This document shows, one piece after another, positions 6,111 to 10,258 of a DNA stretch of 36,840 nt. Each line of letters opens with the position of its first letter. The stretch's first letter is position 1. Below the pieces are notes generated by a model, which did no database searches, was not told the origin of the DNA, and saw only the letters and a list, made by a program, of their open reading frames with translations. The DNA comes from Flavobacteriales bacterium. Lineage in GTDB: Bacteria; Bacteroidota; Bacteroidia; DT-38. Position numbers and translations under genes: made by a program. Location of the stretch: contig JABSPQ010000370.1 of NCBI GenBank assembly GCA_013214205.1, positions 1 through 36,840 on the forward strand. The letters run 5' to 3'.

Positions 6111-7220
6111 TCAATTCTTTATTAAATTCAATAATTCTTCTACTATCTTTTCTGTGGAATTAAGCTTTGCCAATAACTTGATGTTTTCGCTCAGCGATTT
6201 CATTTTTGCGTTATCGGTTATTAATTCAATTGCTTTGGTTCCCAATTCTTTTATTGCGCCTTTATCTTTCACCATTATGGCAGCATCTTTTGCTACCAAG
6301 GCTTGTGCGTTTTTTGTTTGATGATCTTCCGACACATTCGGAGAAGGAATCAAAATGGTTGATTTGCCTACCGCACACAATTCCGAGATGGTAATTGCGC
6401 CTGCTCTACTCACCACAATATCGCAAGCTGCATATGCCAATTCCATGGTATCAATAAAGGCTTGTACCTTTATTTTATCTCTTTTCGATTTGTCCATAGC
6501 TGCATCGATGGCATCGAAATAACCACTACCCGTTTGCCAAATTACCTGCACATTGTTATCGTAAAGTAAATCGATATTGGCTTGTACTCCTTCGTTTATT
6601 GATCTTGCACCTAAACTTCCACCTAAGATTAACAGCGTTTTTAAATTGGGGTTTAATCCAAAGTGTTTTAATCCTTCTTCTCGCTTTCCTTCAATATTTG
6701 CAATTCCTTTTCTAATCGGATTGCCTGTGTTTACCATTTTATCGTCTGGAAAAAACCGACTCATGTTATCGTATGCTACACATATTCGGTCAACTTTATT
6801 CGCTAGCATTCGATTGGTGATTCCAGGAAAAGAATTCTGTTCTTGAATAAGGGTAGGAATTTTAAGTTTGGTTCCGTTGTATAAAACAGGCCCACTAGAA
6901 TATCCACCAACGCCAACAATGGCATCTGGTCGGAATTTCTTAATGAGTCTTTTCGATTTCATAATACTTGCAATCAACTTAAATGGAAAGGATAAGTTTT
7001 TCATATTGAGACTTCGCTGAAACCCACTGATCCAAAGTCCCTCAATGTTGTAACCAGCATTGGGCACCTTTTCCATTTCCATTCTATCTTGGGCTCCTAT
7101 AAACAAGATCTCCGTTTTATCATTTAATTCTTTCAGCCTATTGGCTATAGCAATCGCAGGAAAAATATGCCCGCCAGTGCCTCCACCGCTTATTATTATT
7201 CTAGGCGCTGACATATTCAT
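6111..7220 (-). CDS. murG: UDP-GlcNAc:undecaprenyl-PP-MurNAc-pentapeptide transferase MurG
   Basis: GT28 glycosyltransferase at the inner face of the membrane that converts lipid I to lipid II. The N-terminal glycine-rich loop GGGTGGHIFPA is at residues 12-22. IQEQNSFPGITNR and the second G-loop LGGSLGARSIN follow, and SRAGAITISELCAVG is the donor-binding signature. It has 369 residues, normal for MurG. The ATG at 7218-7220 lies inside the end of ftsW (20-base overlap); a second ATG two codons on is also possible. It sits between ftsW, probable user or partner in handling lipid II, and murC. Confidence 0.97.
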   Translation of the reverse strand: MNMSAPRIIISGGGTGGHIFPAIAIANRLKELNDKTEILFIGAQDRMEMEKVPNAGYNIEGLWISGFQRSLNMKNLSFPFKLIASIMKSKRLIKKFRPDAIVGVGGYSSGPVLYNGTKLKIPTLIQEQNSFPGITNRMLANKVDRICVAYDNMSRFFPDDKMVNTGNPIRKGIANIEGKREEGLKHFGLNPNLKTLLILGGSLGARSINEGVQANIDLLYDNNVQVIWQTGSGYFDAIDAAMDKSKRDKIKVQAFIDTMELAYAACDIVVSRAGAITISELCAVGKSTILIPSPNVSEDHQTKNAQALVAKDAAIMVKDKGAIKELGTKAIELITDNAKMKSLSENIKLLAKLNSTEKIVEELLNLIKN

Positions 7221-8364
7221 TAGTCTCTTCGTTCACTACTTCCCTACTCACACTTAATATTATTCCGATGGCGATACATGTAAACCAAATTGATGTACCA
7301 CCCTTACTTATTAATGGCAATGTTTGCCCGGTAACTGGAAATATGTTTACCGCTACTGCCATGTTTATTAATGCCTGAAATACTATTCCGTAGCAACAGC
7401 CAACTACTAAAAACGCCCCAAAGGAATTGGGTAACAGCGTGGCTACTTTTATTCCTCTAAAGAGGATAATTAGGTACAGCAACATGATACCGATACCTCC
7501 TATAAGTCCATATTCTTCTAATACAATTGCGTATATAAAATCTGAATACGGGTGAGGTAAAAAGTTTCGCTGAACGCTTTTACCTGGACCTTGCCCGGGA
7601 ATACCCCCTAAAGCAATTGCAATTTTTGCCTGCTCCGATTGCCAGTTTGCTTTCTCTTCGCCACTCGAGAAATTATCAATTCTGTGTTTCCATGTAAGTA
7701 TCCTTCCTTTATCTCTTAACGCGTCTTCGGGCATTGCCCAAATAACAGATACCAGAATTGTTACTGCAACTGCCATCATGCCTACCATAATTCCGATGTA
7801 CTTCATGTTGATTCTGCCGATGAACATAAGAATTACACATGTAGCAAATAAGATTGCTGCGGTAGAAAAATCTGCTGGCATAATCAATCCGCAGATTATA
7901 ATTACAGGAACGATGATCGGTAGAAAAGCGCCTTTAAAATCTTTAATTTGATCTTGCTTTCGCCCCAATACACGCGCCACATAAATTATCAGCACCAGCT
8001 TGGCAACCTCCGAAGGTTGAAAGGTTTTATTGATTATTGGAAGCGTTAACCATCTATCTGCCGAGTTTAAATTTGTTCCTTTAAACAGAGTATACAGAAG
8101 TAATGGCACTACTAAATAGAGTGCAATTTGAGAAATTCGAGAATAGTATCTATGCGGAATTAGATGTGTTAAATACATCAATCCCAATCCGAGGATTAGA
8201 ATTTTTCCGTGTTCAAATAAATAATACTCCGTGTCGCCTGCCCTATATTTATAGGCCAAGGTAACAATAGAACTATATACCGTCAGTACAGATGCAATGC
8301 ACAAAAATAGCACTGCAAACCAAATGACTTTGTCTCCTTTTATATATTTAGTTATCGCGTCCAA
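7201..8364 (-). CDS. ftsW: Septal peptidoglycan glycosyltransferase FtsW (SEDS family)
   Basis: Polytopic SEDS protein that polymerises lipid II at the septum together with FtsI. Hydrophobic stretches throughout its 387 residues fit about ten membrane spans. Family motifs include FQPSEVAKLVLIIYVA, HPYSDFIYAIVLEEYGLIGG in the extracellular loop region, and PLISKGGTS near the C-terminus. No ATG occurs before residue 79, and the frame is closed by a stop just upstream, so the start must be the TTG at 8362-8364. That start is 14 bases after the MurD-like gene, and no Shine-Dalgarno sequence is visible, suggesting weak or coupled initiation. Confidence 0.96.
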   Translation of the reverse strand: MDAITKYIKGDKVIWFAVLFLCIASVLTVYSSIVTLAYKYRAGDTEYYLFEHGKILILGLGLMYLTHLIPHRYYSRISQIALYLVVPLLLYTLFKGTNLNSADRWLTLPIINKTFQPSEVAKLVLIIYVARVLGRKQDQIKDFKGAFLPIIVPVIIICGLIMPADFSTAAILFATCVILMFIGRINMKYIGIMVGMMAVAVTILVSVIWAMPEDALRDKGRILTWKHRIDNFSSGEEKANWQSEQAKIAIALGGIPGQGPGKSVQRNFLPHPYSDFIYAIVLEEYGLIGGIGIMLLYLIILFRGIKVATLLPNSFGAFLVVGCCYGIVFQALINMAVAVNIFPVTGQTLPLISKGGTSIWFTCIAIGIILSVSREVVNEETNEYVSA

Positions 8365-8378
8365 TTTATCTTATCGTC

Positions 8379-8897
8379 TTATAAAAGCGTTACTGCCTCT
8401 CTAAATTTTACTCCTCTATCTTGGTAGTTTCTAAACATTTCGAAACTGTTACAGGCTGGAGAAAATAATACCACATCACCATCTTCAGACAGCTCGCTTG
8501 CCAATCTTACACATTCAGATACTGAAGAAGCCGCTGTAAAGCTGTCTACAGAATTATGAAATGCACTTCGCAAACTTTCGTCTCCAGCACCTAAACAAAT
8601 AATTGCTTTTACTTTACTTTCAACTTTATCTGCAAACAAATCGTAATCGATTTCGCTATCTGGCGTACCCACTATCCACACAACTGGCTTGTTCATAAAC
8701 TCCAATGAATACCATGTCGAATTTTCATCAGTAGCTTTAGAATCGTTGATATATTCAACACCATCCACATTCGAAACAAATTCTAATCTATGGTCTATAG
8801 AACCAAACGACTGCACACTACTTGCACGTGCTTTCAACAAATCGTTTGTCTCTTCTACTTTTGTGTTATGTATTTTAGTTTGATCGTTTTGTATCAT
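8379..8897 (-). CDS. Stand-alone MurD C-terminal domain paralogue (function unknown)
   Basis: This 172-residue protein aligns from residue 36 to its end with the last 137 residues of the murD product next door. Hand alignment gives about 67 identities, roughly half, without gaps. Shared blocks are HRLEFV, NDSKAT, IICLG, GDVV and SPAC.SF..F.NY.DRG. It lacks the UDP-binding domain and the ATP-binding domain with its P-loop, so it cannot be a MurD enzyme on its own. The VGGVDKGNDYD motif of MurD reads VGTPDSEIDYD here, losing the lysine that in E. coli MurD (Lys348, from memory) contacts D-glutamate. The first 35 residues include a piece matching the helix before domain 3 and a polar leader. It has a clean ATG, no internal stop and tight spacing (26 bases after murD, 14 before ftsW), so it looks maintained rather than decaying. 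A regulatory or substrate-binding partner of MurD is possible but unproven. Confidence 0.85.
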   Translation of the reverse strand: MIQNDQTKIHNTKVEETNDLLKARASSVQSFGSIDHRLEFVSNVDGVEYINDSKATDENSTWYSLEFMNKPVVWIVGTPDSEIDYDLFADKVESKVKAIICLGAGDESLRSAFHNSVDSFTAASSVSECVRLASELSEDGDVVLFSPACNSFEMFRNYQDRGVKFREAVTLL

Positions 8898-8923: not shown

Positions 8924-10258
8924 TTATAATGCTCTTACTGCTTGCTTAAATTGATGCCCTCTATCTTCGTAGTTTTCGAATAAGTCGAAACTTGCACATG
9001 CTGGCGAAAGAAGTACCACATCTCCTTTTGTACCCATTCTGTACGATTGACGCACTGCTTCTTGAGCAGACATTACATCAACAATTTCTTCTACTTTTCC
9101 CTCAAATGCAGCATGAATTTTTGCGGTGTCTTCGCCTAAGCAAATAATTCCTTTGACTCTTTTATCTACAATTTCCGACATAAAATCGTAGTCGTTACCT
9201 TTATCTACACCACCAACTATCCAGATAATTGGTTTAGCAATGCTTTCCAACGCGTACCATGACGAATTTATATTTGTTGCTTTCGAATCGTTTACGAATT
9301 CGATACCATGCACTTTAGCTACAAATTCTAACCTGTGCTCTGCGTTCTGAAAGTCTGATAATCCCTCTCGGATTTTCTCTTTTCTTATATCTAATACTTT
9401 AGCTACAATGCCTGCTGCCATCGAGTTGTAAGTATTGTGTTTGCCTTGTAAGGCGAGTTCCATTATTGACATGTTTAGTTGTTTGTGGTTTTTAATATTT
9501 ATTATTATTTCTTCTTTTTCTATATGCGCTCCTTCACTGTTATTCCCTTTTATTGTAAATGGAATGAGTTTTGCAGCTCCTTTATTCTTCTTTAAGACGT
9601 TGGTTATGTTTTCATCATCACTGTTGTAAATCAGTAAACACTCTTCATCTTGTTCTTTGCAAATCCTGAATTTTGATGCGATATAATTTTCCATTTTATA
9701 ATCGTATCTATCCAAGTGATCCGGTGTTATGTTTAGTAGAACAGCTATGTCGCACTTCATTTTATCAATGTCGTCTAACTGAAAACTGCTCAACTCCAAA
9801 ACACAATATTCCGGATCCTCCTCCGCAACTACACGGGCAAAACTTTTTCCAATATTCCCAGCTAATTCAACTTTCAATCCTGCTTTTTTCAGGATATGAA
9901 AGGTTAAAAGCGCTGTGGTTGTTTTGCCATTGCTCCCAGTTATGCCAATGATTTCCGCATTGGAATACCTGCTTGCAAACTCTATTTCAGAAATTATTGC
10001 GATTCCTTTAGACCTGATCTTTTTAATGATCTCAGCCGCTTCTGGAATCCCCGGACTCTTAATTATTTCGTCCGCGTTCAATATCTCTTTTTCAGAGTGT
10101 TGCTTCTCTTCCCATTTAATTTCAAACTTTGAAAGAACGTTCTTATACTCTTCTTGTATCTCTCCGCTGTCGGATACAAATACATCCAGCCCCTCTTTTT
10201 TCCCTAGGATAGCCGCTCCTACTCCACTTTCTCCAGCACCTAATATTGCTATCCTCAT
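8924..10258 (-). CDS. murD: UDP-N-acetylmuramoyl-L-alanine--D-glutamate ligase MurD
   Basis: Cytoplasmic Mur ligase adding D-glutamate to UDP-MurNAc-L-Ala. All three domains are present: an N-terminal nucleotide-fold with MRIAILGAGESGVGAA, the central ATPase with P-loop GSNGKTTT at residues 108-115, and the C-terminal domain from about residue 308 with HRLEFV, NDSKATN, VGGVDKGNDYD and SPACASFD. The catalytic set looks complete, so this is the working enzyme, in contrast to its truncated neighbour downstream. It has 444 residues and an ATG start eight bases after the mraY stop. Confidence 0.97.
   Translation of the reverse strand: MRIAILGAGESGVGAAILGKKEGLDVFVSDSGEIQEEYKNVLSKFEIKWEEKQHSEKEILNADEIIKSPGIPEAAEIIKKIRSKGIAIISEIEFASRYSNAEIIGITGSNGKTTTALLTFHILKKAGLKVELAGNIGKSFARVVAEEDPEYCVLELSSFQLDDIDKMKCDIAVLLNITPDHLDRYDYKMENYIASKFRICKEQDEECLLIYNSDDENITNVLKKNKGAAKLIPFTIKGNNSEGAHIEKEEIIINIKNHKQLNMSIMELALQGKHNTYNSMAAGIVAKVLDIRKEKIREGLSDFQNAEHRLEFVAKVHGIEFVNDSKATNINSSWYALESIAKPIIWIVGGVDKGNDYDFMSEIVDKRVKGIICLGEDTAKIHAAFEGKVEEIVDVMSAQEAVRQSYRMGTKGDVVLLSPACASFDLFENYEDRGHQFKQAVRAL

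Follow-up and report, generated by a model that had tools for sequence, protein, structure and literature searches.

A stand-alone MurD third-domain gene beside ftsW in the dcw cluster of part of class Bacteroidia

The window, a stretch of 36,840 nucleotides from a Flavobacteriales bacterium (contig JABSPQ010000370.1), contains within its dcw cluster a 172 aa gene that encodes only the third domain of a Mur ligase; it is a member of a family that reaches far beyond the window. It is considered possible, at a probability of about 0.45, that the gene is an old paralogue of MurD domain 3 which has been neofunctionalized into a separate protein without catalytic activity, one that scaffolds or regulates cell-wall synthesis close to the MurD-FtsW step. 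This reading is drawn from the domain content and predicted fold of the product, the pattern of retained and lost ligand-site residues, the age and selection of the family, and its constant place before ftsW.

Domain content and predicted structure

The stand-alone gene begins with an ATG and runs for 172 codons with no internal stop; the gene order in the window is mraY - murD - stand-alone gene - ftsW - murG, where 26 nt lie between the end of murD and this gene, and 14 nt between this gene and the called ftsW start, which is a TTG and makes the latter spacing uncertain. The sole Pfam match of the product is PF02875 Mur_ligase_C over residues 35-148 (E 3e-12; 47.8 bits against a cut-off of 28.4), whereas the adjacent MurD carries MurD_N, Mur_ligase_M, and Mur_ligase_C. 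With PF02875 only, the product falls outside the three-domain MurD set with its P-loop central domain, and its score of 147 bits to the NCBIfam murD model TIGR01087 is below the 212-bit cut-off for a MurD ligase. Identity to domain 3 of the adjacent MurD is 46-48% over about 142 residues. The original prediction, which described an intact stand-alone domain-3 gene between murD and ftsW and estimated it to be about half identical to its neighbor, is borne out by the open reading frame, the Pfam match, and this identity. Ligation is excluded in principle because the P-loop and the ATP-binding central domain are absent; judged from its sequence, the stand-alone protein cannot be a ligase.

The structure of the product is predicted by AlphaFold2, from an alignment of 82 homologues, with a mean pLDDT of 83.7 and a pTM of 0.76; when the model is searched against the PDB with Foldseek, MurD crystal structures rank first (E 2.5e-12, TM about 0.7 on the query), and plastid polymerase structures containing PAP11 are also among the matches. 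The N-terminal segment aligns with the hinge and with the last part of the central domain of MurD; it is predicted to form a helix over residues 6-31 at low to moderate confidence, and displays an L..(A/L)R motif, with Arg24 at a family-weighted frequency of 0.82. No RNA element was matched by Rfam in the neighborhood of the gene, and a search bearing on a virus-borne origin returned a single BFVD structural match below 0.001, to an unnamed 276-residue protein. The genome of the window has another PF02875 match (G000:C344:643-1023, L002) within an 897-aa open frame, which is possibly cyanophycin-synthetase-like or another large Mur-ligase relative.

Table 1. Features of the stand-alone gene and its neighbors (positions in the window; E. 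coli MurD numbering for equivalents)
Feature	Position	Strand	Basis or remark
Stand-alone MurD domain-3 gene	8379..8897	-	ORF list and translation; PF02875 alone; class-wide homologues at the same place
Residues 1-33, N-terminal segment	8799..8897	-	Predicted long helix (AlphaFold2); conservation table; alignment with MurD
Residues 34-172, Rossmann-like Mur ligase domain 3	8382..8798	-	Pfam; AlphaFold2; Foldseek against the PDB
Residues 36-39 HRLE, equivalents of hinge His301/Arg302/Glu304	8781..8792	-	Conservation table; E. coli numbering
Residues 51-57 NDSKATD, the MurD NDSKATN motif with the Asn322 equivalent changed to Asp	8727..8747	-	
Ser81, in the position of the D-Glu-binding Lys348	8655..8657	-	
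Residues 146-155 SPACNSFEMF, Ser415/Phe422-equivalent stretch kept	8433..8462	-	Ser-Pro almost unchanged across the family
murD, full length, active-site residues intact	8924..10258	-	Directly upstream neighbor
ftsW	7201..8364	-	Directly downstream; stays beside the stand-alone gene in cluster copies read to their end

Retained and lost ligand-site residues

Ten ligand-site positions were compared (His301, Arg302, Asp317, Lys319, Thr321, Asn322, Lys348, Ser415, Leu/Phe416, and Phe422); the E. coli numbering was checked by alignment with 1e0d, and agrees with the hinge-loop residues His301, Arg302, and Glu304 given in PMC4816537. At these positions HRDKTNKSFF is found identically in 83 of the 87 neighboring MurDs from the same genomes. 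The window copy reads HRDKTDSSFF, and so differs from the MurD substrate-residue set at the Asn322 and Lys348 equivalents; the MurD sequence VDKGND is replaced by PDSEID, which places a serine at Lys348. The lysine of the DKG motif is therefore lost as originally noted (DSE), and the NDSKAT and SPAC.SF..F stretches that had been listed as kept are indeed present, though the Asn that follows NDSKAT is an Asp. Across the family, Lys348 is retained as K in only 12/87 free copies, Lys319 in 45/87, Arg302 in 49/87, and Thr321 as T in 60/87; family f12 is the exception, with all ten residues kept in 8/8 copies. The hinge is better preserved: in cluster copies the equivalents of His301 and Glu304 each have a family-weighted frequency of 0.99, compared to 0.62 for Arg302. 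Asn51, Asp52, Ser53, Ser-Pro 146-147, Arg161-Gly162, and Phe165 are also kept nearly everywhere in the cluster copies. In MurD, Lys348 binds a glutamate-mimicking carboxylate (PMC3527612), and Arg302 is a molecular handle for domain rotation (PMC4816537). The loss, in most copies, of residues that contact D-glutamate and nucleotide while fold, hinge, and position are kept fits a pseudo-enzyme domain that would act by protein contact.

The nucleotide site of MurD is built largely by the central domain; the absence of this domain, the loss of D-Glu contacts in most families, and the loss of Lys348 in the window copy make it very unlikely that the free domain is a ligand sensor, which would signal or buffer the supply of precursors by binding D-glutamate, a nucleotide, or the UDP-MurNAc-dipeptide product. 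The case for such a sensor comes from f12, which combines all ten ligand-site residues with extreme conservation and branches deepest in the rooted tree, so that binding may be ancestral; the window copy also keeps NDSKAT and the Ser415 equivalent. The D-glutamate binding put forward in the original prediction is accordingly improbable for the window copy and most others, which have lost Lys348, and is still possible in f12. Complementation in trans of a MurD with a defective domain 3 was also considered and was rejected, as the ligand-site residues are intact in 83/87 neighboring MurDs and conservation of MurD does not drop in domain 3 relative to domains 1-2.

Distribution, gene order, and age of the family

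A first query of 60 relatives gave many free copies beside murD, with 160-240 codons of open frame. The survey covered 396 genomes of the class Bacteroidia that are at least 90% complete, many of them metagenome-assembled, and start codons of the surveyed copies were inferred. Two or more matches were found in 81/396 genomes; one of these (G216) was rejected as a carrier because its two matches, frames of 107 aa and 350 aa on two contigs, look like a split murD, which leaves about 80 genomes (20%) in 19 families. No stand-alone copy was found in 224 genomes from other classes of the phylum, just two of which gave two matches, with weak best E-values of 1e-24 to 1e-30. The carriers with informative names are mostly Flavobacteriales metagenome-assembled genomes, including records labeled Crocinitomicaceae and Salibacteraceae; the labels of some other carriers look like unreliable bin names. 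The window’s own order is represented by only two genomes, both of which are carriers, and a genome of the same genus carries the gene at the equivalent position with 77% identity.

In the loci that were read, 78 copies, including that of the window, lie directly upstream of ftsW, nearly all of them between murD and ftsW, and the spacing to ftsW in these loci is mostly -24 to +20 nt, i.e., small or overlapping. The family is defined as a free domain (about 155-190 aa) encoded immediately before ftsW and usually after murD, a definition the window copy fits; in each of the 19 families the cluster copy adjoins ftsW. In six loci that lack the gene, the interval from murD to the ftsW frame is only -18 to +163 nt; because the two genes nearly abut there, the absences are considered clean. 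The gene is missing from 10/17 genomes of family f21 and 14/18 of family f41, and such clean absence from relatives indicates that some lineages can do without it. In the families with both carriers and non-carriers (f5, f21, and f41), no link was seen between the gene and either the presence of MreB or the number of FtsW/RodA paralogues; practically all genomes there have both.

Two rearrangements separate the gene from murD. In genome G042 murD follows mraY on one contig and the free domain directly precedes ftsW on another (L046:3211-3762 and L062:2574-3914), so that the break in the dcw cluster falls between these two genes; in G259 a cluster without murD runs mraY - free domain - ftsW - murG. 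The only MurD-like gene of G259 is an 885-aa fusion located elsewhere and 33-36% identical to the window MurD, and apparently G259 encodes no other MurD. Its frame (L155:2767-5421, G259:C12) has a divergent MurD in the C-terminal half and an uncharacterized N-terminal half. The free domain of G259 is the most divergent of the cluster copies, and a well-folded structure is nevertheless predicted for it (pLDDT 86.6), including a long helix at the N terminus; it could be a leftover after murD was displaced. From the arrangements in G042 and G259 it follows that the free domain keeps with ftsW more faithfully than with murD. In G287 (L138:1934-3038) two different free domain-3 genes stand in tandem between murD and ftsW.

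These loci bear on whether the free domain acts directly on MurD by binding domains 1-2, either replacing or sitting beside the enzyme’s own domain 3, and thereby inhibits or tunes the ligase as a dominant regulator. Derivation from MurD, a shared operon with tight spacing, and the kept His301 and Glu304 of the hinge would suit such a modulator, and a protein partner that binds MurD and lowers its activity has been described in Acinetobacter baumannii (MigC; PMC12208494), although MigC is a COG0523 GTPase unrelated to Mur ligases. Direct modulation is nonetheless unlikely, as Arg302 is gone in many copies and the gene remains by ftsW where murD has left the cluster, even in G259, which is without a native-type MurD.

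Second copies outside the dcw cluster are found in families f4, f42, and f46, and their motifs are further eroded; those of f4 and f46 (L060:3283-3819, L153:1620-2156, and L059:3198-3764) each lie beside an aldehyde dehydrogenase gene. G042 also encodes a very divergent free domain-3-like protein (L061:2874-3446, G042:C11) with 28% identity and no Pfam match. It is distinctly unlikely that the cluster gene has an unrelated new role, for instance as a small protein, structural or linked to the envelope, that has only inherited the fold and sits in the dcw operon incidentally, since the cluster copy is fixed beside ftsW in every family that has it. The eroded second copies do indicate that roles can drift, and Mur ligase relatives are reused elsewhere: the MurE-like paralogue PAP11 is reported to belong to the plastid-encoded RNA polymerase as one of its subunits, which shows that the fold can be reused, although PAP11 is a chloroplast protein resembling MurE rather than a free MurD domain 3 in a dcw cluster.

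A tree built from domain 3 alone has one branch (SH-aLRT 93) that divides 39 free copies from 40 MurDs. When 15 outgroup sequences from other classes are added (about 140 alignment columns), the majority of free copies diverge below the MurDs of Bacteroidia, with f12 deepest; the best outgroup tree places two f28 copies among the MurDs and f12 apart, and a single clade of free copies is not rejected (p-AU 0.40). In the trees, no free copy pairs with the MurD encoded by the genome it comes from, which excludes a recent origin, and by these phylogenies the free copies appear to be an old paralogous lineage, mostly separate from MurD domain 3. The dN/dS between the window gene and its same-genus homologue is about 0.04 with dS near saturation; pairs from most other families give 0.02-0.2, with dS saturated in many, and f9 reaches up to 0.4, where the MurDs are high too. 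By these ratios the stand-alone copies are under purifying selection.

The free domain usually evolves faster than MurD in families other than f12. In f12 its mean between-species identity is 87%, compared to 57% for MurD domains 1-2, 67% for MurD domain 3, and 63% for FtsW; at the f12 loci (L043, L044, and L101-L106) MurD and FtsW are 46-60% identical between distant members and the free domain about 80% or more, so its rate of change does not track either neighbor. A recent, functionless remnant of a murD duplication is thus extremely improbable: the gene is a partial copy of its neighbor and is absent from many relatives, but intact frames in all carrier families, dN/dS far below 1, long separation in the trees, fixed position, and an f12 domain conserved more strongly than MurD itself refute this explanation for the family as a whole. 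The selection argued for in the original prediction is supported by the low dN/dS and by the presence of the gene in the nearest relative and across 19 families; the two outcomes it had named as refuting selection, absence from close relatives and a dN/dS near 1, were both checked and neither overturned it.

Proposed role and relation to known systems

The scaffold function raised in the original prediction remains, on the sequence evidence, the most plausible of its proposals. In an ancestor of part of the class Bacteroidia, a paralogue of the third domain of MurD would have become a separate non-catalytic protein; the ancestral form may have bound a ligand, as f12 still could. The free domain would act by contacting other proteins, either as a small scaffold or as a regulatory subunit, on the cytoplasmic side of the cell-wall machinery, where it may hold or tune the MurD step near MraY, MurG, and FtsW; the likely docking surface would comprise the predicted N-terminal helix and the retained equivalents of His301 and Glu304. 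The constant place before ftsW suggests a function at the precursor-to-divisome step, and the presence of the gene beside ftsW without murD in two genomes points more towards FtsW or a Mur/divisome complex; operon position alone is no proof of a physical complex. It is rather doubtful that the gene encodes an undescribed dcw protein in which a dead MurD domain serves, in part of the class, as a dedicated adaptor from cytoplasmic precursor ligation to the FtsW/MurG membrane step and is needed even without a nearby murD.

The closest known relative is MurD, with which the stand-alone gene shares the fold, the NDSKAT and SPAC.S motifs, and the hinge His and Glu; it differs in having neither domains 1 and 2 nor the P-loop, in being a separate gene on a separate branch, and in the loss of Lys348 and, in many copies, of Arg302, Lys319, and Thr321. 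The lipid II amidotransferase MurT/GatD offers a parallel in that MurT is a Mur-ligase relative serving as a subunit of a two-protein complex; however, MurT retains the ATP-binding central domain, while the stand-alone gene consists of the C-terminal domain alone, has murD and ftsW as neighbors and no GatD, and is not a member of that system. Physical coupling of cytoplasmic Mur steps to membrane steps is seen in Bordetella pertussis, where a MurE-MurF fusion and MurG oligomers are involved, and MurG is described as a scaffold for Mur enzymes (PMC6420597); these are full enzymes rather than a non-catalytic domain. No description of a free MurD domain 3 was found in the open-license literature, and one may exist elsewhere. 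An earlier dcw study counted tandem copies as one duplicated gene (PMC8871954), a treatment under which such a gene could go unnoticed.

Few bacterial gene clusters have been studied as thoroughly as the dcw cluster, and its inventory of proteins is generally regarded as complete; an additional one, kept between murD and ftsW in 19 Bacteroidia families, would be a missing component of it, and in f12 the stand-alone protein is the most conserved of those compared. The finding bears directly on a possible physical coupling of the Mur ligases to the divisome, and provides a small soluble protein with which such coupling may be tested; if it is a true regulator of MurD, it would represent a natural way of controlling an antibiotic target.
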